DNA of 64,000 nucleotides from an uncultured Flavobacteriales bacterium (GTDB lineage: Bacteria > Bacteroidota > Bacteroidia > CAIKAF01). Within the stretch, counting starts at the first letter, position 1. Each line of letters begins with the position of its first letter. A program made the position numbers and the translations under genes. Location: positions 1 through 64,000 of the forward strand of contig CAILUT010000021.1 of NCBI GenBank assembly GCA_903837495.1. The letters run 5' to 3'. Shown piece after piece: positions 13,158 to 54,142 of the stretch. The notes under the pieces are model-generated. The model had not been told where the DNA came from and ran no database searches. It saw nothing but the letters and a program-made list of their open reading frames with translations.

Positions 13158-14887
13158 AACCCTTAGACGCTTCGGCAGTAAGCAAGGCAAAGGCCTTTGT
13201 AATCCGGCAAATGGAAATGCAACCCCAGCCTTCGCTGATGTTTCATAATTTAAAGCATACCACCGAAGTTGCTGCCACTGCCTATCGGTTGGGGCAAATG
13301 GAAAACCTAAGCAGCAGCGATTTGGTTTTGCTTCAAGTGGCGGCCTGGTTTCACGATTTAGGGTATTTAAGTTCCTACATCGGACATGAGGAAAGCAGTG
13401 CAGGCATGGCCCAAGAATTTCTGGAGGAACTGCAAATGCCAATCGATGGCATTCAGCGCGTCATGGATTTGATTGCAGCAACCAAATTCAACCAAATTCC
13501 TGAAACCGAATTGGAAAAAATACTCGTAGATGCCGATCGAGCCAACATGGGCAGCCGAGAATTTCTGCAAAGGGGTGAACTGCTCAGGCACGAATGGAAA
13601 GTGTACTTATCGAAAACCTACACCGATATTGAGTGGTTGGAGCATCAATTGAATTACATACAAACCACCTTATTTCATACCGAATCGGCCAAGCACCTAT
13701 TTGAAGAAAACCGGCAATTCAACATCGGTGCACTTCAAAATGCATTGGGAGCCAAGCGGTTAAAGCGACAACAGGAGTTTCATTTTCGTTGGCCTAGGCA
13801 ATGGGTACGCGAGGGAAAAGGACTGCTTAGGTCGTTGTTTTTGGGCATTTTGATTGCCATAACCATGAACGTAGCGGTGTTGGGTTCTGAATGGCGGGCG
13901 TTTACCCAAGGGCTGTTGAGTGGAATACTGATTGGGCTGATTTTACGCTGGGGCGACAAACCTTTTGACAGGTACATCACGCGAAAATTTAATTTCCCTA
14001 CCACCTTGGCCTTGGGAACCGGCCTGCTGTTGAGTTTGTTTATTGGAGCCGAAATTTTCACCTTGACCTATGTTCAGTACTTTGAACGTGGGCAATGGGT
14101 AATTTCGAAGGACTTTTTGCAACCCAGCTTGTATTTAGGCTTGGCTTGGAATGCCTTTTTACTGAGTTTGATATTGAATATCATCAAACTTACATCGAGA
14201 ATTATTGGGCCACAGATATTTTGGAGTTACCTGCGCGGAAAATACCACAAACCTGTTGGGGAAGAACGCATCTTCATGTTTATAGATTTAAATTCAAGTA
14301 CGGGCATGGCCGAGACCATGAGCTTGGAGAAATACCATTCCCTGCTCCGGAATTTCTTTAATTCCTTGTCGGGGCCTGTGTCGAGGTTCAACGGAGAAAT
14401 TTATCAATATGTAGGAGATGAAGCGGTAATAACCTGGCCCATGAAAGAAGGACTGAAGGGAGCCAACTGCTTGCGGTGTTACCATCGAATTGTGCAAACC
14501 GTAGAGCGGCAACAGCGGTTTTACATTCGAAAGTATGGATTTATGCCCGACTTTAAAGTGGCCATACATGGGGGTTGGGTGATTGCCGGAGAGATTGGCA
14601 AAACCAAAGCCGACATCGTATTTCATGGCGATGTAATGAACACCACCGAACGGATTTTGCAGCAATGCCGGAACATGGGGCAGCGCTTGCTGATGTCGGA
14701 ATACATTGCCAAGCGGCTTGATTTTCCGGCTCCAATGCAGGCGGTTTTTGTAGATACCTTGGTGTTGAAAGGAAAGAAAAAAAGCATCGGGGTTTATACC
14801 GTATCGACCCAAACCCTGGGCTTTAGAAAAACAACGGCGGCCGATGCGGAGGAAGGCGCTGAGCGGCAGGGATTGCAACGGCAGTGA
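13145..14887 (+). CDS. HD-domain / membrane / class III nucleotide cyclase fusion protein
   Basis: The protein has 580 residues. The N-terminal part (about 15-195) is an HD phosphohydrolase-like domain: FHNLKHT, the HD pair His70-Asp71 in AAWFHDLGYL, and a later VDADR Asp. Four hydrophobic segments lie at about 229-248, 254-267, 285-310 and 327-350. The C-terminal part (about 374-560) is a class III adenylate/guanylate cyclase domain. It has metal-binding Asp381 (FIDLNSS) and Asp425 (YVGDEAV), and the Asn499/Arg503 pair (VMNTTERI). By eye, the residue three before the conserved Gly of that motif is Val rather than the usual Asp or Thr, so the nucleotide specificity is unclear. It overlaps xerD by 13 bases. 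The last ten residues (GAERQGLQRQ) lie inside repeat copy 1. Confidence 0.85.
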   Translation: MEPVKPLDASAVSKAKAFVIRQMEMQPQPSLMFHNLKHTTEVAATAYRLGQMENLSSSDLVLLQVAAWFHDLGYLSSYIGHEESSAGMAQEFLEELQMPIDGIQRVMDLIAATKFNQIPETELEKILVDADRANMGSREFLQRGELLRHEWKVYLSKTYTDIEWLEHQLNYIQTTLFHTESAKHLFEENRQFNIGALQNALGAKRLKRQQEFHFRWPRQWVREGKGLLRSLFLGILIAITMNVAVLGSEWRAFTQGLLSGILIGLILRWGDKPFDRYITRKFNFPTTLALGTGLLLSLFIGAEIFTLTYVQYFERGQWVISKDFLQPSLYLGLAWNAFLLSLILNIIKLTSRIIGPQIFWSYLRGKYHKPVGEERIFMFIDLNSSTGMAETMSLEKYHSLLRNFFNSLSGPVSRFNGEIYQYVGDEAVITWPMKEGLKGANCLRCYHRIVQTVERQQRFYIRKYGFMPDFKVAIHGGWVIAGEIGKTKADIVFHGDVMNTTERILQQCRNMGQRLLMSEYIAKRLDFPAPMQAVFVDTLVLKGKKKSIGVYTVSTQTLGFRKTTAADAEEGAERQGLQRQ

Positions 14888-15004
14888 GCGAAGCCGGCAG
14901 GCGCAGGGGCCAGGTTGGCCCGGCGACCAGGGGGAGCCCCGCCAGCCTGAAGCCCCTGCCCCTGCCGGCAAGTGAGCTACAGTGGAAAGCCCGCGGCCGC
15001 CCCA
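14855..15004 (-). repeat. GC-rich structured repeat, copy 1 (minus orientation)
   Basis: This member of the seven-copy family shares the 5' motif GGGCGGCCGCGGGCTTTC and the core GGGGCTCCCCCTGGTCGCC (minus strand), plus a 3' CAATCCCTGCCGC. The two variable arms, 14893-14910 (GCCGGCAGGCGCAGGGGC) and 14952-14969, are complementary at 17 of 18 positions. Its 3' end overlaps the final ten codons and the stop of the cyclase gene. Its 5' end abuts the rpsF promoter region. The outer ends pair less well than in copies 2, 4 and 6. Confidence 0.8.
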
Positions 15005-16255: not shown

Positions 16256-17023
16256 ATGAAAATAATCTCTTACAACGTCAACGGAATCCGGTCGGCCCTT
16301 AACAAAGGGCTGCTCGAATGGCTCCGCACAGAAAATCCAGATGTGCTTTGCCTGCAAGAATTAAAAGCCATGGAAGAGCAGGTCGATTGGACAGCGCTAA
16401 AAGAAATGGGCTACCACATATACTTGAATCCGGCCCAGAAAAAGGGCTATAGCGGGGTGGGCATATTATCGAAAATGCCGGCCGATCGGGTTGTTTGCGG
16501 AATGGGAATTGAGCAACACGATGCAGAGGGCCGGGTTATTCGGGCCGATTTTGCAGGCCTTACGGTGGTGAGCGTGTATTTTCCCAGTGGAACCTCGGGG
16601 GCTGAACGGCAGGATGTGAAATACATTTTTTTAGCGGATTTTCGGCAATGGGCTTCCACATTGGTACAAGAGCGGGCAGCGGTGCTGATTGCGGGCGATG
16701 TGAACATTTGCCACCAAGAAATGGACATTCACAACCCGGTTTCGAACAAGAACAGCACGGGGTTTTTGCCCGAGGAACGGGCTTGGGTCGATGCCTTTTT
16801 GAATGCGGGTTGGGTGGATAGTTTCCGGGCGCTGAATCCGGACTTGCAGCAGTATTCCTGGTGGAGTTTCCGGGCCAATGCCCGGGCCAACAACAAGGGC
16901 TGGAGAATTGATTATCAATTCGCATCACAGGCTCTGAGGCCGCGGCTCAAGGCGGCAGGCCTACTGCAGGAGGCCACGCATTCAGACCATTGCCCTACGG
17001 TGGTTGAGATTTCGGCGTTTTAA
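16256..17023 (+). CDS. xth: Exodeoxyribonuclease III / AP endonuclease
   Basis: This 255-residue enzyme of the exonuclease-endonuclease-phosphatase fold has the ExoIII motifs MKIISYNVNGIRSAL, DVLCLQELKA, GYSGVGILSK, AGDVNICHQEMD and a C-terminal THSDHCPTVVEI. These contain the catalytic Asn, Glu, Asp and His residues. It acts in base excision repair, cutting at abasic sites and trimming 3' ends. The ATG lies directly after the rplI terminator, and repeat copy 2 begins 15 bases after its stop. Confidence 0.95.
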   Translation: MKIISYNVNGIRSALNKGLLEWLRTENPDVLCLQELKAMEEQVDWTALKEMGYHIYLNPAQKKGYSGVGILSKMPADRVVCGMGIEQHDAEGRVIRADFAGLTVVSVYFPSGTSGAERQDVKYIFLADFRQWASTLVQERAAVLIAGDVNICHQEMDIHNPVSNKNSTGFLPEERAWVDAFLNAGWVDSFRALNPDLQQYSWWSFRANARANNKGWRIDYQFASQALRPRLKAAGLLQEATHSDHCPTVVEISAF

Positions 17024-17037
17024 AGCAGGTTCATTGT

Positions 17038-17183
17038 GGGCGGCTGCGGGCTTTCGCAGGTAGTACGCGGTTGCCGGGCAACTGCCCAGCGGCCTTGCGC
17101 GGGCTCCCAAGGTCGCCTGCGCGGCACGCGGGCAGTAACCCGCCACCCTTGCGCGCTACCTTGCTCAATCCTTGCCGCAGGCC
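17038..17183 (+). repeat. GC-rich structured repeat, copy 2 (plus orientation)
   Basis: The element begins GGGCGGCTGCGGGCTTTC and ends CAATCCTTGCCGCAGGCC. Paired regions visible by eye: an outer stem (GGCTGCGG with CCGCAGGCC, one bulged G); GGTAGTACGC with GCGCGCTACC; ACTGCCC (17081-17087) with GGGCAGT (17130-17136); and an apical hairpin GCGCGGGC (17097-17104), loop TCCCAAGGTC, GCCTGCGC (17115-17122). It lies just 3' of xth in the same orientation. Confidence 0.85.
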
Positions 17184-17267: not shown

Positions 17268-17603
17268 ATGAAAAACCTATGTATTGTTGGATTGTTGTCC
17301 CTGACTTTCGGATTAACCCGTGCACAAAAGGTGTTTTCGGTTGATTATGAAAACCAAGCCGATGTAAAGATTTTTGCCGTCAACTACGAAAACCAAGCCG
17401 ACCTCAAGGTTTTTAAGGTGAAATATGAAAACCAAGCCGGAAGCAACGACGGCAAATGGTTTTTTACCCAATATTCAAACCAGGCAAAAAAGAAAGTGTA
17501 TTTCGTTAAGTATGAAAACCAAGCCGATTTAAAGGTCTTTTTTGTTGATTATGAAAATCAAGCAGGTTGGAGAAATTCGGCGAAAAAGAGCCTGATGTAC
17601 TAG
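17268..17603 (+). CDS. Secreted YENQAD-repeat protein
   Basis: From the ATG at 17268 (MKNLCIVGLLSLTFGLTRAQ, a signal peptide) this is a 111-residue exported protein. Its mature part is six tandem repeats of about 12-18 residues with core V-x-Y-E-N-Q-A-D/G, each alternating with a short beta strand such as LKVFFV or VKIFAV. It resembles the small DUF6150-type proteins I recall from Bacteroidota, but I cannot confirm that assignment. The function is unknown; the regular strand pattern suggests a small beta-repeat fold. It stands alone after repeat copy 2. Confidence 0.8.
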   Translation: MKNLCIVGLLSLTFGLTRAQKVFSVDYENQADVKIFAVNYENQADLKVFKVKYENQAGSNDGKWFFTQYSNQAKKKVYFVKYENQADLKVFFVDYENQAGWRNSAKKSLMY

Positions 17604-19540: not shown

Positions 19541-19686
19541 CGCCCGCGCCCGGGATCGAGGCGGCATGAAGGCGGTGGTGGGCGCTTGCCCCCGGACGAG
19601 GAGGCGACCAGGGGGAGCCACCGCAGGCCGATGGGGCAAGCAGCACGGCAGCAACTGAATACAGCCAAGAGCCCGAATTGGCGCCC
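19541..19686 (-). repeat. GC-rich structured repeat, copy 3 (minus orientation)
   Basis: On the minus strand it starts TTTTTTGGGCGCC, carries the core GCGGTGGCTCCCCCTGGTC then GCCTCCTCG, and ends near CGATCCC. The variable arms GCTTGCCCC (19584-19592) and GGGGCAAGC (19633-19641) are perfectly complementary. It lies 3' of recG in the same orientation. With copies 5 and 7 it forms a subfamily with a TTTTTTGGGGCGC-type start. The remaining 256-bp stretch between here and the gene start at 19255 holds only the palindrome cluster. Confidence 0.75.
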
Positions 19687-19748: not shown

Positions 19749-21848
19749 CTACGAAATCATGGACCAAGGGCCCTGGCTGCGCTCCCGGGCCTGCAAATAG
19801 CGCAACAGGTTGGCGTGCTGGGGGTCAAGCAAATCCGGGTCGCGCTCTACGATGTGCCAAACCGCCTGCCGAGCCTGCTCCAACACGGGAGCGTCTTCCA
19901 ACAAACTGGCCAGCTTGAACTGCATTTCTCCGCTCTGCCGGGTCCCCTCTAAATCGCCCGGACCACGCAACTCCAAATCCTTTTCAGCAATCTTGAACCC
20001 ATCGTTCGTGGCCACCATTACCGCCATGCGCTCCCTTGCTTCGGTGCTCAACTGCCGCCCCGTTAGCAAAATGCAGTACGATTGGTCGGCCCCCCGCCCT
20101 ACCCGACCGCGCAGCTGGTGCAGCTGACTCAGACCAAAACGCTCGGCACTCTCAATCACCATAACCGAGGCATTCGGCACGTTCACCCCCACCTCGATCA
20201 CCGTGGTGGAAACCAAGACTTTGATGTGCCCTTTCACAAATCGAGCCATGGCGTTTTCCTTGTCGGCCGACTTCATTTGCCCATGCAGTACGTCGGCCGG
20301 AATGTCGGGCAGGTGTTGCTTGAACACTTCGAATCCCTCCAACATGTTTTTGTAGTCCAGCTTTTTCGACTCGTCAATCAGGGGGTACACCAGGTAAATT
20401 TGCCGGCCCGCCTCTACCTGCTGCCGAATAAACCGGTACACCTCTTGCCGAACCTCTTCGCCTTTGTGTATGGTTATAACGTTCTTTCGGCCCGGGGGCA
20501 GCTCGTCGATCACCGATACGTCCAAATCGCCGTACAAGGTCATGGCCAAGGTGCGGGGTATGGGCGTGGCGGTCATAACCAAAACATGGGGAGGCGTAGA
20601 ACGGGCTTTTTCCCAAAGCCGGGCCCGCTGGGCCACCCCAAACCGATGCTGTTCATCGATGATGGCCATGCCCAGGTTGTGGAACTGAACCTCTTGCTCC
20701 AACAAGGCGTGGGTGCCCACCAACAGTGAAATTTCGCCCTGCTGCAATGCGGCATGCAGCTTAGTACGCTCGGCCTTTTTTGTGCTGCCCGTAAGCAAAC
20801 CCACCCGAATGCCCAGGGGCGCCAACAGCTCTGATATGCCTAAAAAATGCTGCTGGGCCAGAATTTCGGTGGGGGCCAGCAAGGCGGTTTGATAGCCGTT
20901 GTCATGGGCCATAAGGGCGGTGAGTACGGCCACTACGGTTTTTCCGGAGCCCACATCGCCCTGAAGCAAGCGGTTCATTTGCCGGCCCGATTTAACATCG
21001 GCCCGAATTTCTTTTAATACCCGCTTTTGGGCCTGAGTAAGGGAAAAGGGCAGGTGCTGTTCGTAAAAGGTATGAAAGGCCGGCCCCAACTGGGGCAAGG
21101 GAATGCCGGGCTGAGCGGTTTGGTTGCGGGCTTTGGTTTGCAGCATGCGAAACTGGGCCATAAACAGCTCTTCGAACTTGAGCCGAAAGCGGGCCGATTG
21201 CAGGGCCTGGCTGTCGGGCGGAAAATGAATCCAGCGAAAGGCCTGGTCGCGCCCAATCAAGCCGTAGCGGCTTAGCACGGCCTCGGGCAGGTTCTCGGGT
21301 ATGGGAGCCGGCAAGCCATCGATGATTTGCTTGAGCAATTTGCCAATGCCTTTGGGGTCTAAACCGGCTTTGCGCAGTTTGTCGGAGCTGGGGTACATGG
21401 GGCTTAGGCCCGGTTGCAGCTGCTGCCCAGGCTGCATGATTTCGAAGTCGGGATGCGACATGCCCGGTTGGCCTTTGTAAAAAATGGGCTTTCCGGCAAC
21501 AATCAAAACCTGTCCGGGCTTCAGTTTTTCGTCCAGCCAGGCCATGTTGCCGAACCAGGTTAGTTCCATGCTGCCGCTTTTGTCGCGCAAATGCACGGTA
21601 AAACGTGATTTTCCCTGACCGGGCAGCCATTCTTTGTGTTCAATGGCTCCGATGGCCTGCACATAAGGCATGGACTCGCTGATGAGTCCAATGGGTTGAA
21701 ACCGGGTGCGGTCTAGGTAGCGAAAGGGAAAATGCGTTAAGGCATCGGCAAAGCTGTGCAGGCCCAAGTCTTTGGACAAGAGAGCGGCCTTGTTGGGTCC
21801 GCAGCCCTTTAAGTACGCCAACGATGTAGATAAATAATGACCTTGCAC
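19749..21848 (-). CDS. recG: ATP-dependent DNA helicase RecG
   Basis: This 699-residue helicase remodels stalled replication forks and Holliday junctions. An N-terminal wedge/OB domain (about 1-230) is followed by the helicase core. Walker A is GDVGSGKTVVAVL, the Walker B variant is DEQHRFG, and motif III is VLVMTATPIPRT. Motif VI is LHQLRGRVGRG, followed by the RecG-specific C-terminus (LELRGPGDLEGTRQSG). Full length for the family. The start codon is GTG; no earlier in-frame ATG is plausible. Confidence 0.97.
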   Translation of the reverse strand: MQGHYLSTSLAYLKGCGPNKAALLSKDLGLHSFADALTHFPFRYLDRTRFQPIGLISESMPYVQAIGAIEHKEWLPGQGKSRFTVHLRDKSGSMELTWFGNMAWLDEKLKPGQVLIVAGKPIFYKGQPGMSHPDFEIMQPGQQLQPGLSPMYPSSDKLRKAGLDPKGIGKLLKQIIDGLPAPIPENLPEAVLSRYGLIGRDQAFRWIHFPPDSQALQSARFRLKFEELFMAQFRMLQTKARNQTAQPGIPLPQLGPAFHTFYEQHLPFSLTQAQKRVLKEIRADVKSGRQMNRLLQGDVGSGKTVVAVLTALMAHDNGYQTALLAPTEILAQQHFLGISELLAPLGIRVGLLTGSTKKAERTKLHAALQQGEISLLVGTHALLEQEVQFHNLGMAIIDEQHRFGVAQRARLWEKARSTPPHVLVMTATPIPRTLAMTLYGDLDVSVIDELPPGRKNVITIHKGEEVRQEVYRFIRQQVEAGRQIYLVYPLIDESKKLDYKNMLEGFEVFKQHLPDIPADVLHGQMKSADKENAMARFVKGHIKVLVSTTVIEVGVNVPNASVMVIESAERFGLSQLHQLRGRVGRGADQSYCILLTGRQLSTEARERMAVMVATNDGFKIAEKDLELRGPGDLEGTRQSGEMQFKLASLLEDAPVLEQARQAVWHIVERDPDLLDPQHANLLRYLQARERSQGPWSMIS

Positions 21849-22864: not shown

Positions 22865-22971
22865 AGCCACGAATGCACGAATGTTTGCAAAATCGGGGCT
22901 GAATTGTCGGTGCCCCGGTAAGCCATAATCTTAAAAACGCGGTGGAACGGGCAGCCACGAATGCACGAATG
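22865..22971 (+). repeat. Pair of 19-bp direct repeats upstream of mnmE
   Basis: AGCCACGAATGCACGAATG occurs at 22865-22883 and again at 22953-22971. Each copy is internally repetitive (CACGAATG CACGAATG). The 323-bp gap between 22763 and mnmE holds these, the expanded palindrome and the mnmE promoter-like sequence, but no gene. Confidence 0.85.
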
Positions 22972-23071
22972 GTTTCGGCTATATTATCCGTGCCTTTGCA
23001 GGCAGCCACATGAAACGGCCCCTAAAAGCCCGCATCACAAACGGCCTCGCGTCTGCCAAATAAAAAATGCA

Positions 23072-23079
23072 GACCTTTG
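23072..23079 (+). promoter_or_regulatory. -7-like element of mnmE
   Basis: GACCTTTG differs from TAnnTTTG at the first T and lies seven bases before the chosen mnmE ATG (23087). No -33 TTG is seen at the usual distance. It supports the short start over the longer open frame. Confidence 0.35.
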
Positions 23080-23086
23080 CACTGGA

Positions 23087-24454
23087 ATGTTTGAATTGAC
23101 CCAAAACATAGCAGCTTTGTCCACTCCATTAGGTGGGGGTTTGGCGGTAATTCGGGTAAGCGGTCCACACAGCTGGCCGGGGGTTGCGCAGTTTTTCAGT
23201 CCCATGGGAAAGAAACATGCACCATGGAGCCACAGGCAGGCCTTGGTTGGGAATTGGATGGACGGAGAGGAAGTGTTGGATCAGGTGGTTCTGCTGCCGT
23301 TTAAAGGCCCAAACTCCTTTACCGGCGAAGATTTGGTTGAAATCAGTTTTCATGCTTCGCCCTATGTGGTCGAGCGGGCCTTGCATCAAATGGCAGGACT
23401 TGGAATTCGGCCGGCCCAAGCCGGGGAATTTACCCGCAGGGCTTTTATGAACGGTAAAATGGACCTGGCTCAGGCCGAAGCGGTGGCCGATTTGCTCTCG
23501 GCCAGCCACAAAGCCGCCGCACGCATGGCCATGCAGCACCTCGGCGGAGCCTTTTCAAACCGCATTGCCCAAATGCGGTTGGGTCTGCTGGATTTTTGCG
23601 CTTTGCTGGAACTGGAACTGGATTTCTCGGAAGAAGAGGTCGAGTTTGCCTCGCGCAGCGACCTGGCAGAACGCGTACAGCAGATTGAACAGCAAATTCA
23701 GGCATTGCTGCACACCTACAGCATGGGCAGGGCCATCAAGCAAGGCATTCCCGTGGCCATTGTGGGTAGGCCAAATGCGGGCAAAAGCACCTTGCTAAAC
23801 GCCTTGCTGCAAGAGGAACGGGCATTGGTATCCGACATTCCCGGCACCACCCGCGATACGGTAGAAGACGAGTTGATTTTAGAGGGCATTCGGTTTCGGT
23901 TTATTGATACGGCGGGAATCCGCGACACCCAAGACCCAATCGAAAAACTGGGCATTGAACGCAGTTTCGATGCCCTGCGCCGCTCGGGAATGGTCTTGCA
24001 TTTGGGCGATGCCCAAAGCCAATCCCTGGAAGAGTTTGAGCTGGAAGAGGCAGACTGGAGGGAACGGCTAGGGTTGGAAGACAAGCCCATTTTGCGGATT
24101 TGGAACAAAATGGATGTGCCCGAGGCTCAAATGCCGGCAGCAGGCGGCATGGCGATTTCGGCGAGGAACGGCGAAGGTCTGGAAGAACTAAAGCAGGCCT
24201 TGCTCGACAATCTCGCTGAAATGGGCTACGGCAACCAAGACCTGTTGATTAGTCAGGCACGGCATAAGGGCTTGCTGGAGCAGGCGGCTCAGGCATTGGA
24301 GCGGGTGCGGCAGCACCTGGAAGCGGGCTACAGCGGCGATCTGCTGGCCTTGGATTTGCGGCAGGCCATGCGTCCGTTGGAGGAATTGACTGGGCAAATT
24401 GGCACGGAGGAGGTGCTGGGGCATATTTTTGGGCGGTTTTGTATCGGGAAATAA
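23087..24454 (+). CDS. mnmE: tRNA modification GTPase MnmE
   Basis: From the ATG at 23087 (MFELTQNIAALSTPLGGG) the protein has 455 residues, the normal MnmE length. The N-terminal tetrahydrofolate-binding domain is followed by a helical domain, into which the G domain is inserted. The G domain shows G1 GRPNAGKST, the G2 region DIPGTTRDTVEDE, G3 DTAGIRD and G4 NKMD. The C-terminal FCIGK carries the invariant Cys. With MnmG it modifies U34 of tRNAs such as the tRNA-Lys(UUU) found at 8801. A longer frame from 22961 runs through the direct repeats and is rejected. Repeat copy 4 follows the stop. Confidence 0.96.
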   Translation: MFELTQNIAALSTPLGGGLAVIRVSGPHSWPGVAQFFSPMGKKHAPWSHRQALVGNWMDGEEVLDQVVLLPFKGPNSFTGEDLVEISFHASPYVVERALHQMAGLGIRPAQAGEFTRRAFMNGKMDLAQAEAVADLLSASHKAAARMAMQHLGGAFSNRIAQMRLGLLDFCALLELELDFSEEEVEFASRSDLAERVQQIEQQIQALLHTYSMGRAIKQGIPVAIVGRPNAGKSTLLNALLQEERALVSDIPGTTRDTVEDELILEGIRFRFIDTAGIRDTQDPIEKLGIERSFDALRRSGMVLHLGDAQSQSLEEFELEEADWRERLGLEDKPILRIWNKMDVPEAQMPAAGGMAISARNGEGLEELKQALLDNLAEMGYGNQDLLISQARHKGLLEQAAQALERVRQHLEAGYSGDLLALDLRQAMRPLEELTGQIGTEEVLGHIFGRFCIGK

Positions 24455-24466
24455 GGGTTTAATTTG

Positions 24467-24612
24467 GGGCGGCTGCGGGCTTTCGCCGGTAGTCCGCTGT
24501 TGCCGGGGGCTGCCCCAGCGAGCTTGCGGTGGCTCCTAAAGTCGCCTCCGCGCCACGCGGGCCAGGCCCCGCCACCATTGCGTGCTACCCGGCTCAATCC
24601 CTGCCGCAGGCC
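24467..24612 (+). repeat. GC-rich structured repeat, copy 4 (plus orientation)
   Basis: Same length as copy 2 (146 bases), with the shared ends GGGCGGCTGCGGGCTTTC and CAATCCCTGCCGCAGGCC. The outer stem is identical to that of copy 2; GGTAGTCCGC pairs with TGCGTGCTACC. The apical hairpin is GCGGTGGC (24526-24533), loop TCCTAAAGTC, GCCTCCGC (24544-24551). The variable arms differ from copy 2 yet are still partly complementary (GGGG/CCCC runs). It lies between the convergent ends of mnmE and the next gene. Confidence 0.85.
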
Positions 24613-31515: not shown

Positions 31516-31664
31516 GGGGGTTGCGCCCCCGATTGAACCGGCAGGCGGTGCAGCCCAAGCCCAGCGAAGCCAGGGCGAGGAGGCGACCAGCGGGAGCCAC
31601 CGCAGCCCCAGGCTGAGCAGGCTTGGGCAAGCCGACTACAGGTGAAAGCGGGAATAGGCGCCCC
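31516..31664 (-). repeat. GC-rich structured repeat, copy 5 (minus orientation)
   Basis: On the minus strand it begins TTTTTTGGGGCGCC, has GTAG in CACCTGTAGTCGG, the core GCGGTGGCTCCCGCTGGTC then GCCTCCTCGCC, and ends TTCAATCGGGGGCGC. The variable arms GCCCAAGCC (31553-31561) and GGCTTGGGC (31620-31628) pair at 9 of 9 positions. The 3' end forms a hairpin GGGGG-TTGCG-CCCCC (plus strand 31516-31530) resembling one beside copy 3. It lies 3' of the hydrolase gene in the same orientation. Confidence 0.8.
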
Positions 31665-31677
31665 AAAAAATAAAGGT

Positions 31678-32574
31678 CTAACTCCCATTTAATGCCTTTT
31701 GAACAAACCTTCCTGCGGCCAGGAGCGAGGCCTCTGACTCCGGCAACCAATTGCCGGCGGCCTGAAAAACATGAAAAAGCCCGGGCCAAACCTGCTCGTC
31801 TACCTCAAGGCCCGAAGCCATCAACAACCGTGCAAGTTGCTGACATTGAAGCGACAGCAGCTCGTCAGAGCTGTAATGCAGCAGCACAGGAGCCTGGGTT
31901 TTATGGGCATGCAGCAGGGGCGACACCGCCGGATTTTCACGCTGCCCAGGGGCGTACAGCTCTGCAAAGCGCTCTAAATCAACGGCCCGAATGTAGGCAT
32001 CTTGCGGTTCCAAGGCCAAAGCCTGGGGCTGCAAGGGCCGCAAATCGACCCAAGGGGAAAACAGCAGCAATGCCCGGCCGGCCGAAAGCGCTTGGGCGAG
32101 CAAATGGTGGTGCAAAGCCAGGGCCAAGCCCCCCCCTGCCGAATCGCCCGCCAACACAAAAGCCTGATTTAGCGAGGCCGACCAGCCGGGCAACCAAGCA
32201 CTCAAGGCATGAAACGCCGACGGAAAGGGATGCTCGGGCGCCAAAGGGTACTCAGGCATAAACACCCTGCAGCCGGAATTCAGCGCCAATTGCGCCACCC
32301 AAGGAGCGTGGGTACGGCCCGAGCCCAAGGCGTAGGCGCCACCATGCAAAAACAAAATGCAAGCCGAATGCGACACCGTTTCTGGCTCGATGCTCCAGCC
32401 CCGCATGCCCTGTTCTGTCTTTTTTTTAACCTGAACCCCCGCCGGCATCGGGAACCGCGACATCAACACCTCAAAGCCCTTTCGCATTGGCAAAATGGAC
32501 ATGTTTTCGCGGTAAAAGGCCTTGCGCATGCCTCTGAGCATCAACACCATGGCACGGGCTTTTACCGAGGGCAT
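31678..32574 (-). CDS. Alpha/beta hydrolase, hormone-sensitive-lipase family
   Basis: This 298-residue enzyme has the family signature HGG oxyanion motif (LFLHGGAYALGSG), the nucleophile elbow GDSAGGGLALAL, and late Asp and His candidates (LHYSSDELLS, WPGLFHVFQA). It probably hydrolyses carboxyl esters; the natural substrate is unknown. The start follows the symporter stop by one base (TAATATG), so it is the third gene of an aroC-symporter-hydrolase cluster. No signal peptide is apparent, suggesting a cytoplasmic enzyme. Confidence 0.9.
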   Translation of the reverse strand: MPSVKARAMVLMLRGMRKAFYRENMSILPMRKGFEVLMSRFPMPAGVQVKKKTEQGMRGWSIEPETVSHSACILFLHGGAYALGSGRTHAPWVAQLALNSGCRVFMPEYPLAPEHPFPSAFHALSAWLPGWSASLNQAFVLAGDSAGGGLALALHHHLLAQALSAGRALLLFSPWVDLRPLQPQALALEPQDAYIRAVDLERFAELYAPGQRENPAVSPLLHAHKTQAPVLLHYSSDELLSLQCQQLARLLMASGLEVDEQVWPGLFHVFQAAGNWLPESEASLLAAGRFVQKALNGS

Positions 32575-32575
32575 A

Positions 32576-33880
32576 TTAATCCTCTTTTTCGTGGCTGTTC
32601 ACAATGTAAGCCACCATGCAATCGGAGGTTACATTGGCCGTGGTTCGAAACATATCCAGCAAGCGGTCGGGAGCAATAATCAAGGCAATGCCCGCCGGAT
32701 CCATTCCCACCGATTTTAACACAATTACCAGCATAATCATGCCGGCACCGGGCACGGCGGCCGAGCCGATGGAAGCCAAAACCGAGGTTAGAAGAATGGT
32801 AAGTTGATCGGATAAACTTAAATCCAAACCAAAAGCTTGGGCAATAAAAACAGCTGCTATACCTTGATAAAGCGAAGTTCCGTCCATGTTTATGGTGGCG
32901 CCCAAGGGCAAAACAAAGCCCGCCACCCGGGGGCGAACTTTTAAATGTTGCTCTACCCGTTCAAAGGTTAAGGGCAAGGTAGCTGCTGAGCTGCTGGTTG
33001 AAAAGGCAAGCAATTGAGCGGGGAAAATAGATTTGTAGAAGAAAACCAAATCTTTGAATTTAAATTTCTTTGAAAAAACAAACAGAACCAAAGGATTCAT
33101 AATAAAAAGGAGGCAAAAAATCCCTGCCACAACACACAGGGCGTAGGTTCCAAGTGCCAGGAGCAAATCAACAGCACCGGCGGCATTTCCCGCTAAATTC
33201 GACAGCACCGAAGCCATTAAGGCGGCCACACCGATGGGAGCCGCGGCCATAATTAAATCAACCATTTTCAGCACCACGGCATTCAGCGATTCAAAAAACC
33301 GAAGCAAGGGCCGCCCTTGATCGGCCGGAACCAAGACTAAGGCCAATCCCAGCAACAGGGCAAAGGAGATAACCTGCAGCATGTTGCTGTTGTCGGATGC
33401 TGCACCAAAGATATTTTTAGGTATGGCATCGGTCAAAAATTGAAGGGCGGGCTGTTCTTCAAGGGCCTGTTGCCTACTTAACGCTGCAGAATTGCTGCTT
33501 TGTGCGCTTGCATAGGTTTCCTGAAGTTCGGCGCGAACTTTGGCCGAGAGTTGATTTCCGGGTTTTACCAGATTGGCGATTCCAAGTCCAATGGCTACCG
33601 CCATAAACGTGGTCATCAAAAACAAAATTAGGGTGCGAACACCCAAGCGGCCCAGGCTTGCAATGTCTTTCATTTGAGCCAGACCTGTTACCAAAGATGC
33701 AATAACCAGCGGCACGGCAATCAACTGGAGCAGGCGCATAAACACATCGCCCAGGGGTTGAATGTAGTTGAAGGTAAAAAACTGCCATTGCTGCAGAATA
33801 GAAAACCAGCCATAGAGCAGGCCCAAGAGCATGCCAATGAGAATTTTCTGGTACAGGGGCAAATTCAATCGTTTTTTCAT
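32576..33880 (-). CDS. Dicarboxylate/amino acid:cation symporter (GltP/DctA family)
   Basis: The chosen start (MKKRLNLPLYQKILIGMLLG) overlaps the aroC stop as ATGA; an ATG nine bases upstream (33889) is possible. The protein has about 434 residues and the eight-helix, two-hairpin fold of the DAACS family. It shows the serine-rich reentrant loop FSTSSSAATLPLTFERVE and the cation-binding NMDGTSLYQG. The second hairpin AAVPGAGMIMLVIVL and RLLDMFRTTANVTSD near the C-terminus also fit. It imports acidic amino acids or C4-dicarboxylates with Na+ or H+. An extra Ala/Gln/Ser-rich stretch (about 125-145) lies between helices 3 and 4, as in several Bacteroidota relatives. Confidence 0.93.
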   Translation of the reverse strand: MKKRLNLPLYQKILIGMLLGLLYGWFSILQQWQFFTFNYIQPLGDVFMRLLQLIAVPLVIASLVTGLAQMKDIASLGRLGVRTLILFLMTTFMAVAIGLGIANLVKPGNQLSAKVRAELQETYASAQSSNSAALSRQQALEEQPALQFLTDAIPKNIFGAASDNSNMLQVISFALLLGLALVLVPADQGRPLLRFFESLNAVVLKMVDLIMAAAPIGVAALMASVLSNLAGNAAGAVDLLLALGTYALCVVAGIFCLLFIMNPLVLFVFSKKFKFKDLVFFYKSIFPAQLLAFSTSSSAATLPLTFERVEQHLKVRPRVAGFVLPLGATINMDGTSLYQGIAAVFIAQAFGLDLSLSDQLTILLTSVLASIGSAAVPGAGMIMLVIVLKSVGMDPAGIALIIAPDRLLDMFRTTANVTSDCMVAYIVNSHEKED

Positions 33881-34962
33881 GGTTTCCATTGTTTGGCATA
33901 GGCCTTGGCGGCCAGAATATGGTCGGCCACCACCAAGGCGGCCATGGCTTCCACCACGGGAACGGCGCGGGGCACCACACAGGGGTCGTGCCGGCCTGCG
34001 GCACTCAAGGCAACGGCCTCGCCTTTTGCATTTACTGTTTGCTGGGCCTTGGCTATGGTTGAGGTGGGTTTAAAGGCCAGCCGAAAATACACCGGCATTC
34101 CGTTGGTAATTCCGCCTTGCACCCCAGCCGAATGGTTGGTTTTAGTTTCAATGCCCGATTCCCCTGGCACAAAGGCATCGTTGGTTTCTGAGCCCAATTG
34201 GCTAGCCATGTCAAAGCCCTCGCCCCACTCTATTCCGCGCACAGCATTGATGGAAAGCATCGCGCTGCCCATGTCGGCATGAAACTTTGCATAAACGGGT
34301 TCGCCCAGGCCAATAGGCAGGCCCAAAATCTGACAACGCACCGTGCCGCCTAGGCTATCTCCATCGGCTTTTGCCGCGTCAATGGCTTGCATCATGCGGT
34401 GGGCCGCATGGGCATCGGGGCAATGAATGGGACTGCTGTACACCTGTTCGTCAGAGTACTCTTGGGCCTCAGCCCGGTGTTTTCCGATTTGATCGACGTA
34501 GGCCAGAATAGAAATTCCCTGCTGGTTAAGCCAGGGCAAGAGCAGGGACCCTGCCGCCACGCGGGCGGCGGTTTCGCGGGCCGAGGAGCGTCCCCCGCCG
34601 CGCGCATCGCGAATTCCGTACTTTTCGGCGTAGGTAAAATCGGCATGCGAGGGCCTGAAAACGGTTTCCAGAGCCTGGTAATCGGCGGGGCGGGCATCGG
34701 TATTTCGAATCAAAAAAGCCAGGGGGCTGCCCAGGGTAAATCCCTTGTACATGCCCGAAAGCCATTCAATGGCATCTGATTCGTTGCGGGCCGAGGCATA
34801 CGGGGTCCGTCCCGGTCGGCGTCGATTCATGCACGCTTGCACCCGTTCTAGGTCAATCGGCAGCCCTGCGGGCAGTCCGTCCAGAACACCGCCAATGCAA
34901 GGTCCATGCGACTCACCAAAGGTGGTCAAGGTCAGCAGTCGCCCAAAACGATTCACAGCCAT
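33877..34962 (-). CDS. aroC: Chorismate synthase
   Basis: This 361-residue enzyme carries out the last shikimate-pathway step, turning EPSP into chorismate with reduced FMN. Signatures are FGESHGPCIGGVLDGLPAG at the N-terminus, RRPGR near residue 50, GIRDARGGGRSSARETAARV in the centre, and AGGR-type GRHDPCVVPRAVPVVEAM near the C-terminus. Length and motifs are complete. It heads a cluster with the symporter and hydrolase genes, and has one of the best promoters in the window, placed so close that the mRNA should be leaderless. Confidence 0.98.
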   Translation of the reverse strand: MAVNRFGRLLTLTTFGESHGPCIGGVLDGLPAGLPIDLERVQACMNRRRPGRTPYASARNESDAIEWLSGMYKGFTLGSPLAFLIRNTDARPADYQALETVFRPSHADFTYAEKYGIRDARGGGRSSARETAARVAAGSLLLPWLNQQGISILAYVDQIGKHRAEAQEYSDEQVYSSPIHCPDAHAAHRMMQAIDAAKADGDSLGGTVRCQILGLPIGLGEPVYAKFHADMGSAMLSINAVRGIEWGEGFDMASQLGSETNDAFVPGESGIETKTNHSAGVQGGITNGMPVYFRLAFKPTSTIAKAQQTVNAKGEAVALSAAGRHDPCVVPRAVPVVEAMAALVVADHILAAKAYAKQWKP

Positions 34963-35055: not shown

Positions 35056-35203
35056 GGGCGGTTGCGGGCTTTCCCCGGTAGTACGCATCGGCCGGCCTAA
35101 GCCACTGCGGCTTTGCGGGGGCTCCTAAAGTCGCCTCCGCAGCACGCGTGGCTTTGGGCCGGCCGCTTTGCGCGCTACCTGGGTCAATCCCTACCGCGGG
35201 GCC
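35056..35203 (+). repeat. GC-rich structured repeat, copy 6 (plus orientation)
   Basis: This copy folds best by eye. The outer stem is GGTTGCGG with CCGCGGGGCC, where G-T pairs replace the C-G and T-A pairs of copies 2 and 4 while the same G stays bulged. GGTAGTACGC pairs with GCGCGCTACC. The long variable stem is GGCCGGCCTAAGCCAC (35090-35105) with 35148-35164, 16 pairs and one bulge. The apical hairpin is GCGGGGGC (35115-35122), loop TCCTAAAGTC, GCCTCCGC (35133-35140). It sits between aroC's promoter and the 3' end of the next minus-strand gene. Confidence 0.87.
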
Positions 35204-35230: not shown

Positions 35231-35464
35231 TTAATTCGTTATGGAATCCAACAGCCCATTGGCTTTGTCCTTTCCCTCATTCAGGGTTTCTTTAACATCT
35301 CCCCCCGTAAAATGAACATAGGCCAAAAACAAACCAAGTGCGATTAAAACAACCAGAACCAATTTTATCAATTTCTTGATGAGGAAATACACCAAAAAGG
35401 CCAAAAGGCCAATGGCAACGGCAATAAAAATAGGGTTAGAAACCAGTTTGTCTAAAAATTCCAT
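35231..35464 (-). CDS. Small membrane protein, unknown function
   Basis: From the ATG at 35464 (MEFLDKLVSNPIFIA) the product has 77 residues. There are two adjoining hydrophobic segments (IFIAVAIGLLAFLVYFLI and LVLVVLIALGLFLAYVHF) separated by a KKLIK basic turn, then a polar tail (VKETLNEGKDKANGLLDSI). It looks like a small inner-membrane hairpin protein; I do not recognise a family. The longer open frame upstream to 35581 overlaps the protease gene's end and lacks support. Confidence 0.65.
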   Translation of the reverse strand: MEFLDKLVSNPIFIAVAIGLLAFLVYFLIKKLIKLVLVVLIALGLFLAYVHFTGGDVKETLNEGKDKANGLLDSITN

Positions 35465-35547
35465 AATGAAAACCGATTGTTTAATGGCACAAAATAAGGG
35501 AAATGGGCCAAAAACCTTGAAAAAAGAACCGTTAACCCAGCTTAATC

Positions 35548-37398
35548 TTAAAACGGAAAACGATTGGCGGCATAATCCCAAGGGGCATCAAGGGCATTGG
35601 CCGAATTTAAGGGCAAGCAATAGCGAACCGAATAGCTAGCCAAATCTATAAAAACAACCCAGGCCTGGGTTTTGCTTTTGGGCAAGTCGGGCAGTTGTTC
35701 CAAAGCCGCAGGAAGCCATTGTATAAAAGGCTGACTTTGATTGGCCGACTCGGCTTTTGCGCTGCGAACCAAGACGCCTAGGTACCGAACGTTGTGTTCT
35801 TTCCGAAACGCAAGAATGTCTAAATGGTTGGCGGGGATGTGCTGCCAAGCGGGATTCGTTAATACGTTGAAGCATAAATCCCACAAATTGCTTTTCTCGG
35901 CACAAGAAAGGCGACTCCCCTGAGCGCCAATTTGAGCATTTAATGCAGGCACATTTGACCTGCTGTTGCCCGGTACCCCATGCAGCATTTCCCAATTCAT
36001 GGGCAGCCATTTAGAACCAGACAGCAATTCGGGATGTAGATTCCCCCGCCCTGAAAACCATTCCATCGTTTGCCTTGGATTGCTGGGCAAAAACCGCTGA
36101 TAGGCTAATTTAAGTTCTAAAAACCAATCGGATTCCAACATTTGGCCTGTTTGAAAAAAGATCGGCGATTCCAATTGACTGCTAAGCTTCTCAGAAAGGG
36201 AAAACCGTTTCCAGGCCGGCCAGTCGGTGCGCCGCTGAATGCGGTGTAGGCTATCGCTGAGCTCTTGGTACTTTTCTAGGTCGAATGCTTTTCCTGAAAA
36301 TTCATTCCAGGTTTGCCTTCCGGCACAATTTAACTGCAAGGCAACAGACTCGGCAAGCGGTCTGATTGCAGCTGAATCCTGAGGAAACCGCAATTGAGCA
36401 TCAAAGGTGTGCCGAAGTGCCCAAGCCGCTAACTCCCTTGCGGTCCACCTATAAAAAATGGATTCGAGGCGGTGCAGCTCAGGATTTCCCATGCCATGCG
36501 GCATGGGCAATGCCAAGGCGTTTTTTAAGGTTGCCAATTGAAGCACAATAAAAACCCGACTCCGTTCCATTTGCAGATCGCTGATGGAATCAGACAGCCA
36601 AATTTGTAGGGCCCGAATCGGCTTTGATTCCATTAAATAGGCTTGAATCAAAGCCAAATTGGCCTGATGTTGAATTTCAATTGGAATGCGTAGGGAATCC
36701 AATCGGGTTGAAGGGCGCAAGGAATTGCGGGAGGCCAACAATTTCATTCGTTCAGCTATCGCCTGCCGTTCTTCAGAAAATCCATCGTAGGGTAAGCCGT
36801 CCACCGTGCTTATTTCGGCTTCCAAAGGCAGCATGCCCGATGGAAAAAAACGGGGAGGAAGCGAGGCCGCTGTTGGGCTTTTGGGCGAAAAAATCAGGAA
36901 CGCAGATTCGGCCGCAAAATTGGAGTAGCCCGCGGCTTTTACCAAGGCTAAAGCCCGCCGATCTGCTTCTTTTTCAACTTGAACCTCGTTGGCCGAAGAA
37001 ATCGAAGAGTAATGGGCTTTAGGATAGGAATGCCTTAACTCCAAATGAGCCAATTCATGGGCCAAAACAAAGGCCAATTCAGCCCTACCTTGGCATGCCT
37101 GAACAAACCCAATGCTAATGGAAATTTCGCCCTGGGCTTCGGCATAAACCGTCTTATCGCCAGTAGCCAACAACCGAACCCGTACCGGGGCCAAATAGCT
37201 GCTTTTGGCCTGCAAAGCATGTAAAATGGATTCCAATTCCGATTGAATCAAGCGGGTTTGGCACTCCAACCAAGGACGTTCAACCACACCTTGCTCAGAA
37301 ACAGCGATGCAAGATGCGGGCGATTGGGCCTGGTAAAATCCGCATAAACCCAGCCAAAAGAACAAACCAACCAAAAGCCAAATACGCGTAATTTGCAT
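35548..37398 (-). CDS. M48-like zinc metalloprotease, exported
   Basis: The start at 37398 (MQITRIWLLVGLFFWLGLCG) gives a signal peptide and a 616-residue protein. The zinc site HELAHLELRH contains HExxH (His114, Glu115, His118). VQVEKEADRRALALV about 25 residues later supplies the third ligand Glu, as in M48 peptidases. The large C-terminal region (about 200-616) is helical and has no motif I recognise. A periplasmic role in protein quality control is inferred only. Its start codon and the truB region are divergent and closely spaced (52 bases between starts). Confidence 0.8.
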   Translation of the reverse strand: MQITRIWLLVGLFFWLGLCGFYQAQSPASCIAVSEQGVVERPWLECQTRLIQSELESILHALQAKSSYLAPVRVRLLATGDKTVYAEAQGEISISIGFVQACQGRAELAFVLAHELAHLELRHSYPKAHYSSISSANEVQVEKEADRRALALVKAAGYSNFAAESAFLIFSPKSPTAASLPPRFFPSGMLPLEAEISTVDGLPYDGFSEERQAIAERMKLLASRNSLRPSTRLDSLRIPIEIQHQANLALIQAYLMESKPIRALQIWLSDSISDLQMERSRVFIVLQLATLKNALALPMPHGMGNPELHRLESIFYRWTARELAAWALRHTFDAQLRFPQDSAAIRPLAESVALQLNCAGRQTWNEFSGKAFDLEKYQELSDSLHRIQRRTDWPAWKRFSLSEKLSSQLESPIFFQTGQMLESDWFLELKLAYQRFLPSNPRQTMEWFSGRGNLHPELLSGSKWLPMNWEMLHGVPGNSRSNVPALNAQIGAQGSRLSCAEKSNLWDLCFNVLTNPAWQHIPANHLDILAFRKEHNVRYLGVLVRSAKAESANQSQPFIQWLPAALEQLPDLPKSKTQAWVVFIDLASYSVRYCLPLNSANALDAPWDYAANRFPF

Positions 37399-52296: not shown

Positions 52297-53619
52297 ATGA
52301 TTCGGGGCCTTCGTCTTCTATCCCTCCTTTTCTGCTTGCAGCCGCTTCAATCCCATTTATGGGCACAAGTTCCCGCTATCTTAATCACAACCAAAGGCGA
52401 TACCCTAAACGGGTTCATCGACGAACCAAATGCAACGCAAGCCTTAAGGCAAATCCTGTTTTATCCGACAGCCAATGCCGATAACCCTCAAAAATTCTAC
52501 CCTAGAACCCTGCAAACCCTTTTCTTCCAGCCCACAGGCAGCTCCGATACCCTTGGCATTCGATCAATACGCCTCGACGATTCCTACCTCTTTGGCTGGA
52601 TTGCCGAAAATGGGCCCCTGCAATTAATAGAAATTGGCCAAAAAGAAAAAATCAATGGAAAGTCCACCCTAAAATGGAGGTATTACCTACTGGACTCGAA
52701 CACTACAGCACTTCCCGACGAAATTCAACCCAGCAGCTTTAGGCGGATAGCCGGACGCCACATCAAAGACCATGTGCGCTTGTACAAAGACCTGAACGCT
52801 AGAATGTATGAGTTTGAGCAACGCCGCGAATTGGTAGCCGAATACAACCGATGGATTCGGGCGGGAAAACCGGCCAACACCTGGACCGAAGAAAATGGGA
52901 ATTATACGCTGAAAGAAGCCCCCAAACCTTCAATACAAGCCAAAAAGCCAGAACCCGATTTGAGCCATTCACCCATTCATTTTAATCTGGAAGCCGGCGG
53001 ATATCTCGGCCTTGGTATTATTCAATACGATGAATTCACCTTCAATACCATTGGGCTTCGCTTTAGCACACCCGGCCCTGGATACCAATTGCAACTCGGT
53101 GCAAACATGGAATGGAACAAACGCCTCTTAATACGCGCGGGCCTTAACCTCTCTGCCAAAGGACTTCGGGTTTCCTATCCTGGAAAAATTGAGGTGGATT
53201 CAACAACTCAAATCCCTGTACAGCTCACCGAAACCTGGAACATGACCTACCTGGGCGGATACACCATATTCGAATACCACCAAAACGATTTTTTTGTAGG
53301 TGGCGGTTTTGATTTTACTTTTCACCCCTTTGTCAAAAAACAAATTTCAGAGTCGAGCGGCTCCTTTCAAATCGATCAGCAAGACACATTGCTGTTTAAA
53401 AGGGCGCTAAATCAGTTTGATTTGGTTTTGAGCACCGGCTTTTCGCTCAGCGACCCCCAGGGCAAATTCCGAATCAAACCCCTATTAACCTATCATTTGC
53501 CCGTCCAAAATCTGTTGGAATTTGTAGACCCGATTGGCGTCATAACTGGCCTAAATCAGTACCCTTTGGCGGGCATTAGCTTCCGACTGGGTGTCATCGT
53601 TGATTTTAAATTAAAATAA
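52297..53619 (+). CDS. Predicted outer-membrane beta-barrel protein
   Basis: The 440-residue protein has a signal peptide (LLSLLFCLQPLQSHLWAQ). The N-terminal domain (about 25-195) has short beta strands (AILITTKGDTLNGFID, RRIAGRHIKDHVRLYKDLNA). The C-terminal half (about 230-440) shows alternating amphipathic strands (YQLQLGANMEWNKRLLIRAG, NDFFVGGGFDFTFHPF) and ends in a strand finishing VDFKLK, as in Bacteroidota porin-like barrels. I do not recognise a named family. Repeat copy 7 follows about 47 bases after its stop. Confidence 0.75.
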   Translation: MIRGLRLLSLLFCLQPLQSHLWAQVPAILITTKGDTLNGFIDEPNATQALRQILFYPTANADNPQKFYPRTLQTLFFQPTGSSDTLGIRSIRLDDSYLFGWIAENGPLQLIEIGQKEKINGKSTLKWRYYLLDSNTTALPDEIQPSSFRRIAGRHIKDHVRLYKDLNARMYEFEQRRELVAEYNRWIRAGKPANTWTEENGNYTLKEAPKPSIQAKKPEPDLSHSPIHFNLEAGGYLGLGIIQYDEFTFNTIGLRFSTPGPGYQLQLGANMEWNKRLLIRAGLNLSAKGLRVSYPGKIEVDSTTQIPVQLTETWNMTYLGGYTIFEYHQNDFFVGGGFDFTFHPFVKKQISESSGSFQIDQQDTLLFKRALNQFDLVLSTGFSLSDPQGKFRIKPLLTYHLPVQNLLEFVDPIGVITGLNQYPLAGISFRLGVIVDFKLK

Positions 53620-53665: not shown

Positions 53666-53807
53666 GGGGGCGCTGTCCGGCTGTCTCAGGTAGCGGCTCG
53701 ATACAGCCTGCCCGGGGCTGCTGTCTGCGGTGGCTCCCAAGGTCGCCTCCTCGCCAGGCCCCGGGAAGGCCGTACCCCCGCCGGCTACCTTGTTCCATCC
53801 GGGCGCC
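53666..53807 (+). repeat. GC-rich structured repeat, copy 7 (plus orientation)
   Basis: It begins after a T run with GGGGGCGCTGTCCGG, carries AGGTAGC/GGCTACCT as inner pair and the core GCGGTGGCTCCCAAGGTC then GCCTCCTCGCC. The variable arms at 53706-53720 (GCCTGCCCGGGGCTG) and 53755-53770 pair at about 13 positions. The outer ends GGCGC and GCGCC pair with a sequence different from copies 2, 4 and 6. It lies in the gap between two convergent genes. Confidence 0.83.
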
Positions 53808-54142
53808 ATGCCGCCTCATTCTTTTGCCCTTTTCAATGTCCTTAATGCCCAATGAACTTGAACCCTGTTCTGCCTCCAATGCCCTAAACGGAATTCCGCT
53901 GATTCAAATTGCCTTTAGTACAATCCGTTTTTATTGCCCTTTTCAATTTCCCCAAAGCCCAATCCACCTAAATCTTGGTCTGTTCCTGTACCCTAGACTT
54001 CATTTCGCCAATTAAAATCGACTCTGCTGCCCCTCTGTTTAATAGCACAAAAACCAAGGGCATCGAACCCAAACAGCCTACACGCCTAATTTAAAAGCGA
54101 GCCGAACTGCCAGAATTCTTTGGCCGCTTTTTGAGGCTCAGG
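53808..54142. other. Intergenic stretch with imperfect direct repeats
   Basis: No credible gene is seen. Two imperfect copies of a segment of about 50 bases occur at 53823-53872 and 53931-53984. They share an exact 14-base TTGCCCTTTTCAAT (53824-53837 and 53934-53947) and later GCCCAAT and TGTTC blocks. This looks like decayed duplicated sequence. Confidence 0.5.

Follow-up and report, generated by a model that had tools for sequence, protein, structure and literature searches.

A dispersed family of long intergenic hairpins related to Flavo-1, probably recognised by structure as DNA

Introduction

The window analysed here, a stretch of 64,000 nt, belongs to contig C21 of a 2.51-Mb genome (G000) and carries seven intergenic blocks that share conserved pieces in a fixed order. 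A first-pass annotation had proposed a common fold for the seven, had matched them to no named RNA or repeat class, and had considered a structured noncoding RNA, a REP/BIME- or MITE-like mobile hairpin, and a 3′-end processing or termination element. The locus therefore raises the question of what this family is, and whether its fold is read in RNA or in DNA.

Results

Seven copies of one hairpin in the window

The seven copies, their spacing, their orientation (four plus, three minus) and their division into subfamilies A and B, all as first described, were confirmed by repeat search, a core pattern and a covariance model (R1). The copies are 141–143 nt long, and all are significant with R1 (E 7e-11 to 4e-29):

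14862..15002, minus strand: copy 1, subfamily A; R1 59.5 bits, E 7e-11
17038..17179, plus strand: copy 2, subfamily A; R1 145.3 bits, E 4e-29; stop of ORF 16256-17023 14 nt before it
19545..19686, minus strand: copy 3, subfamily B; R1 70.6 bits; about 62 nt behind recG (19749-21848, RecG domains)
24467..24608, plus strand: copy 4, subfamily A; R1 143.9 bits; 12 nt after mnmE (22961-24454, MnmE domains)
31522..31663, minus strand: copy 5, subfamily B; R1 67.4 bits; 14 nt after a hydrolase gene (31678-32574)
35056..35198, plus strand: focal copy, subfamily A, one 143-nt imperfect hairpin; R1 141.8 bits, E 2e-28; alignment A1
53667..53808, plus strand: copy 7, subfamily B; R1 97.5 bits; behind ORF 52297-53619

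The focal block starts at 35056, where it had been placed, but ends near 35198 rather than at 35203. The chorismate synthase gene (33877-34962) starts 94 nt away from the 5′ end of the block, and the minus-strand ORF 35231-35581 has its stop about 33 nt away from the 3′ end. The gene context was as described, with every copy 3′ of a gene: five follow a gene on their own strand, whereas the copies at 35056 and 14862 lie at the 3′ end of an opposite-strand gene. The ORF at 13145-14887 (HD and cyclase-like domains) stops 26 nt inside the copy at 14862-15002, which may supply its last codons. In addition, a 39-nt tandem coding repeat of the ..YENQADLKVF.. type occupies window positions 17328-17563, just downstream of the copy at 17038.

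Anatomy of the hairpin and covariation of its arms

Each copy folds as a single imperfect, rod-like hairpin of nearly fixed length (141–146 nt in 76 copies, with two exceptions). The rod starts at its foot with P1 (GCGGC/GCCGC) and a basal motif (GGG-C-TT-TC / TC-AA-T-CCC); above P2 (GGTAG/CTACC), which comes next, follow a long variable arm, a GC stem and finally the tip (GGC-TC-C(4 nt)G-TC-GCC). In the focal copy these parts lie as follows:

35058..35062, plus strand: P1 5′ arm GCGGT, paired with ACCGC at 35193-35197
35066..35073, plus strand: basal motif, 5′ side, GGGCTTTC; stem GGG, C/T mismatch, two pairs, tandem TC/TC mismatch
35077..35081, plus strand: P2 5′ arm GGTAG, paired with CTACC at 35175-35179; compensatory changes between copies
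35120..35135, plus strand: tip GGC-TC-C-TAAA-G-TC-GCC with a second tandem TC/TC mismatch; near-invariant in 74 copies
35184..35191, plus strand: basal motif, 3′ side, TCAATCCC

The conserved pieces of the first-pass annotation (the core GGCTCC...GTCGCC, GTAG, CTACC and the CAATCC-like 3′ part) are thus present as the two arms of one long hairpin, but GTAG proved not to be invariant: its partner is CTAC, and the pair is replaced in a compensatory manner by GTTG/CAAC, CTAC/GTAG and also AAG. P1 likewise covaries across copies (GCGGC/GCCGC, GCGGT/ACCGC, GCGGG/CCCGC).

Covariation was counted on alignment A1 (74 copies, 50 pairs). Paired cells amounted to 87.9%, compared with 69.4 ± 0.5% after shuffling and 40–47% with slid partners. 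Double changes were found in 41 of the 50 pairs, with 591 double-change cells against 175 ± 12 in shuffled alignments, which bore out the shared fold that had been proposed. The mismatches C16/T147, basal TC/TC and tip TC/TC are kept in 67–74 of the 74 copies per column; on the 5′ side of the basal motif, the single C was found in 74/74 copies and the tandem T and C in 74/74 and 72/74. Read on the minus strand, these fixed mismatches are A·G and tandem G·A. Single-stranded DNA folding energies mildly favour the minus strand, in 54 of 79 copies and by a mean of 2.2 kcal/mol (shuffled control 0.9).

The basal module is related to Flavo-1 (RF01705)

Rfam scanning of the window copies gave no Flavo-1 match, scores staying below the gathering score of 42 bits, and at E ≤ 1e-4 no Flavo-1 was found in G000. 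When the diverged relatives L278, L274 and L275 were scanned with a permissive threshold, however, the entire Flavo-1 model matched, on the opposite strand, with 30.1, 27.8 and 26.1 bits against the gathering score of 42. No other Rfam family matched the window copies or the relatives scanned.

This relation was approached independently of Rfam with R2, a model of 67 positions for the basal module, built solely from source-genome copies. R2 matched 26 of the 40 canonical Flavo-1 loci of genomes G079 and G114, exactly in place and on the opposite strand. The top 26 matches are all Flavo-1 sites, and among the matches listed the sole other one scores weakest. R2 also matched Flavo-1 sites in many other genera; of 119 genomes sampled from the class, 44 carry Flavo-1 itself. 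The landing of a model made without Rfam on canonical Flavo-1 sites, on the opposite strand, shows homology of the basal module to Flavo-1. The family is thus related to a named one through both R2 and the Rfam scan of relatives, contrary to the first-pass annotation. Formal membership in RF01705 is not shown, since the window copies fall under the Rfam threshold; these copies are probably a long (~143-nt), GC-rich, diverged branch of the superfamily filed as Flavo-1.

The two share a basal stem, an A·G mismatch, two pairs, a tandem GA/GA, a second stem and a variable apical hairpin. They also share many copies per genome in Bacteroidetes and a T-rich 5′ flank (in the orientation used here). 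In contrast to the 76-nt Flavo-1, the window branch is about 143 nt long, GC-rich and read on the opposite strand, and it has a long variable arm and a second conserved mismatch motif at the tip. The apical part is longer still in one element of G006 (L215:440-760), where a branched insertion extends the structure beyond 300 nt.

Weinberg et al. (2010, PMC2864571) list Flavo-1 as a motif of Bacteroidetes that is 'probably' an RNA and not cis-regulatory; Rfam files it as an sRNA. In the F. psychrophilum transcriptome (PMC9723704), Flavo-1 hits follow no rule as to sense or antisense, and they often fall outside the regions that are transcribed. A search of literature readable without subscription found no treatment of Flavo-1 as a DNA repeat.

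Copy number and spread

The pattern GGCTCCN{2,8}GTCGCC was matched 195 times in the 2.51-Mb genome and 3 times when reversed, so chance does not explain it. The family extends well beyond the window, with at least about 200 copies in the source genome. A profile found 101 copies in 778 kb of G000 and 102 in 915 kb of the relative G009, a density of about 11–13 copies per 100 kb in regions chosen partly for holding copies. Exact cores number 3–5 in G006 and G008 and 166–212 in sister species, and by this pattern the family appeared limited to four of the six genomes of the genus. Such a restriction was rejected as an artefact of the exact pattern, since the covariance model found at least 114–116 copies in the core-poor sister species. 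With this model, at least 114–150 copies were found in all six genus genomes, 80 in a genome of another genus and a few in others. Some relatives are merely 81–85 nt long and correspond to the basal module alone. Across 84,980 species, the matches listed for the strict pattern include loci of at least three MAGs assigned to Flavobacteriales/Bacteroidetes, which come from freshwater and the Caspian Sea.

Dispersal and retention of copies

Identity between paralogues reaches 98.6% and stops sharply at the limits of the 144-nt unit, the flanks being unrelated. At several orthologous sites one species has an element where another has none: the site of copy 4 (24467) carries no element in G007 and G009, and the G000 site orthologous to a copy of G009 is shorter by 147 nt. 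No target-site duplication is visible; the empty sites have diverged so that the junction is not legible base by base, and the whole element is an inverted repeat. Together, the core-count differences between species, the near-identical paralogues in unrelated flanks and the empty sites show that dispersal is real.

Most mapped orthologous sites are nevertheless occupied in both species (12/16, 15/20, 9/9 and 11/11). Among the window copies, the place of copy 3 (19545) is occupied in G005, that of copy 5 (31522) in G005, G007 and G009, and the G009 orthologue of copy 7 (53667) directly follows a stop codon in the alignment. Orientation is the same in 30 of 31 orthologous occupied sites, and the flanking non-coding sequence is largely unalignable. 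At orthologous sites, compensatory changes numbered 134 (40 expected) and broken pairs 162 (310 expected). Judged by similarity, most orthologous copies are kept by descent, since 23 of 30 comparisons rank the orthologue first; in the remaining seven the copy was partly or wholly replaced, and the apical part can swap on both arms together. This retention at orthologous sites argues for a role on site, which mobility alone leaves unexplained.

Insertion sites and gene context

A run of five or more T lies within 15 nt upstream of 51% of copies, compared with 4% in a control stretch, and a T5 run lies within 40 nt 3′ of the element in merely 10%. A same-strand ORF stop is found at most 80 nt upstream in 151 of 252 copies, with a peak at 5–15 nt, and an opposite-strand stop lies near the 3′ end in 84 of the 252. 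An intrinsic terminator was considered and rejected: the proposed termination element is unlikely because the T tract lies 5′, not 3′, of the hairpin. One element (L070:1560-1800) is flanked by a direct repeat of about 45 nt that contains another palindrome (AGCACATGTGCT).

The fold is not biased towards G·U

If the fold were that of an RNA made from one strand, G·U should be far commoner than A·C among departures from Watson–Crick pairing. Departures were counted starting from pairs present in the folds of both strands. G·T and A·C were found 65 and 75 times in orthologues, 341 and 281 times in close paralogues, 142 and 142 times in copies with a same-strand stop at most 80 nt upstream, 38 and 31 times in antisense copies, and 107 and 94 times in the remaining copies. 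In canonical Flavo-1 of two distant genomes the counts were 717 and 897 (pairwise counts, not independent). By comparison, tRNA acceptor stems at the same loci, a small control, gave 12 G·T and no A·C. An apparent plus-strand fold with a G·T excess of 308 vs. 102 was discarded, since these counts were biased by two conserved T·G positions and by folding, and the unbiased counts are equal.

The simplest reading, suggested by this lack of a G·U preference, is that complementarity is maintained in DNA, and the position of Flavo-1 relative to transcripts in PMC9723704 fits it. Both element orientations are common, with a bias towards that of the upstream gene of about 58%; this bias, like the proximity to stop codons, would also be compatible with an element that acts within the transcript. 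Replication-strand preference of the copies was not significant (63 vs. 85).

Candidate mobilising or reading proteins

No RVT_1 reverse transcriptase was found in the copy-rich genomes G000, G005, G007 and G009, and a retro-mobile RNA was rejected because of this absence. An integron integrase (TIGR02249) above cut-off was found in none of six genomes, where Xer-like recombinases alone appeared, and identity with integron attC sites was rejected on this ground.

Y1/RAYT genes are present in five of the six genus genomes. In G000 two RAYT-like genes were recovered by protein query, where the PF01797 search had given no Y1 match. Nine Y1/RAYT genes have an element within about 450 nt, every one pointing to the gene, which is suggestive in G000, G006 and G008. 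The RAYT genes are, however, surrounded by a GTAG REP of their own, GTAGAGACGCAATATTTTGCGTCTC, with 23 matches in 58 kb of Y1/RAYT loci vs. 14 in 778 kb of G000, 10 of these 14 at a single RAYT locus. Moreover, the comparison took in 14 genomes of other families, of which 13 carry both Flavo-1 and Y1 genes; a single one of their 30 Y1 loci neighbours a Flavo-1. These two results weaken the link to RAYT. G005 has no Y1/RAYT match, yet it holds 187 copies, some 97.2% alike.

At L302, L301, L299 and L305, GTAGAGACGCAATATTTTGCGTCTC forms clusters of GTAG palindromes at RAYT genes and looks like their REP. In L302 and L301 it also occurs in frame inside the RAYT gene, giving VETQNIASL-like repeats. 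At L306 (G000:C47), a RAYT-like ORF (1459-2445) lies between SAM-I/IV riboswitch hits of the same orientation (1235-1329 and 2646-2740), as if the gene had arrived with a riboswitch duplication.

Discussion

The seven blocks probably belong to a dispersed repeat, related to Flavo-1, whose hairpin is recognised by its structure as DNA. The fold would act as DNA, in a single-stranded hairpin or a cruciform, and the folded strand would most likely be the minus strand, on which the conserved mismatches are tandem G·A. A structure-reading, DNA-handling protein would recognise these fixed mismatches rather than the sequence of the stem. New copies would arise as exact units beside T-rich sites, with no visible target duplication. 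Some use of the folded DNA on site is likely too, because older copies persist and keep the fold. We speculate, more tentatively, that Flavo-1 and the long branch together could be an unrecognised structure-recognised DNA element, in which a protein reads two sets of tandem G·A at a fixed distance on a folded single strand and disperses the element to T-rich sites behind stop codons, the host keeping the copies as DNA hairpins. In that case, a family that Rfam files among the sRNAs would be one of DNA, and a new strand-handling enzyme would await discovery.

The retention of copies could also mean that the element is a host-useful DNA site that is not, or no longer, mobile, such as a cruciform or a nucleoid-protein, topoisomerase or recombination site at gene ends, comparable in role to the gyrase-binding BIMEs of E. 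coli. Orthologous retention with compensatory changes, closeness to stop codons, complementarity at the DNA level and the many copies of G005 without a Y1/RAYT match all agree with such a site, but the history of core counts, the near-identical paralogues and the empty sites point to real dispersal, and we consider this explanation unlikely, though a serious one. A 3′-UTR or antisense RNA family, as in the current annotation of Flavo-1 and among the identities first proposed, is clearly less likely. Although the strong covarying fold, the position and orientation behind genes, the sRNA listing in Rfam and the 'probably' RNA rating in PMC2864571 speak for it, G·T is no commoner than A·C in any subset or in canonical Flavo-1 (tRNAs 12 : 0). 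Furthermore, both orientations are common, Flavo-1 has no consistent strand in transcribed regions (PMC9723704), and on the strand co-transcribed with the gene the fixed mismatches are pyrimidine–pyrimidine.

The proposal of a REP/BIME- or MITE-like mobile hairpin stood as far as a dispersed hairpin repeat is concerned, whereas the invariant GTAG and RAYT association of a REPIN did not. A REPIN-like element moved by a RAYT (Y1 transposase) is very unlikely: GTAG/CTAC in the stem, the one-sided T-rich flank without visible target duplication, the RAYT homologues of G000 and the elements pointing to nine nearby Y1/RAYT genes would fit it, but GTAG is not invariant at the hairpin foot, the local RAYTs have their own GTAGAGACGCAATATTTTGCGTCTC REP, Y1 loci elsewhere are rarely beside Flavo-1 (1/30), and the copies of G005, some 97.2% alike, occur without a Y1/RAYT match. 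Complementarity might, finally, be a by-product of replication template switching that rewrites the arms without selection, which would explain why double Watson–Crick changes exceed single wobble states among close paralogues (1738 vs. 622) and why whole apical parts are swapped on both arms. Such rewriting should erase the C/T and TC/TC mismatches, which are near-invariant, and the total length is fixed; this explanation is therefore highly improbable.

Among other systems, ERIC, BOX, Correia and bcr1 are non-coding, dispersed, hairpin-folding repeats of 100–200 nt in other phyla, and no sequence relation between them and the window family was recognised. In attC sites of integrons, stems vary freely, the protein reads mismatches and fold, the apical part is variable and the site lies behind a stop codon. 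The probable DNA hairpin repeat of the window would work alike in principle, but it forms no arrays, occurs in both orientations and has no RYYYAAC/GTTRRRY boxes visible in its consensus. Like REP/REPIN (BIME) elements (PMC3116915, PMC3733652), it comes as hundreds of short palindromes between genes, close to gene 3′ ends, and its imperfect stems have conserved irregularities; unlike these, it is much longer and has neither an invariant terminal GTAG nor a general association with RAYT genes.

Since 2010 Flavo-1 has been catalogued among the small RNAs, with no function assigned to it. The lack of a G·U preference, the occurrence in both orientations and the sharp-ended dispersal make a direct, testable case for a DNA hairpin repeat, and the G·T : A·C ratio is an inexpensive way to test other 'structured RNA' families whose origin is repetitive. 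Moreover, hundreds of paralogues and orthologues with free stems and fixed mismatches constitute a natural experiment that points to the sites read by a protein. The hairpin family probably also breaks short-read assemblies, since several contigs of G000 (C13, C22, C24 and C25) start inside an element.
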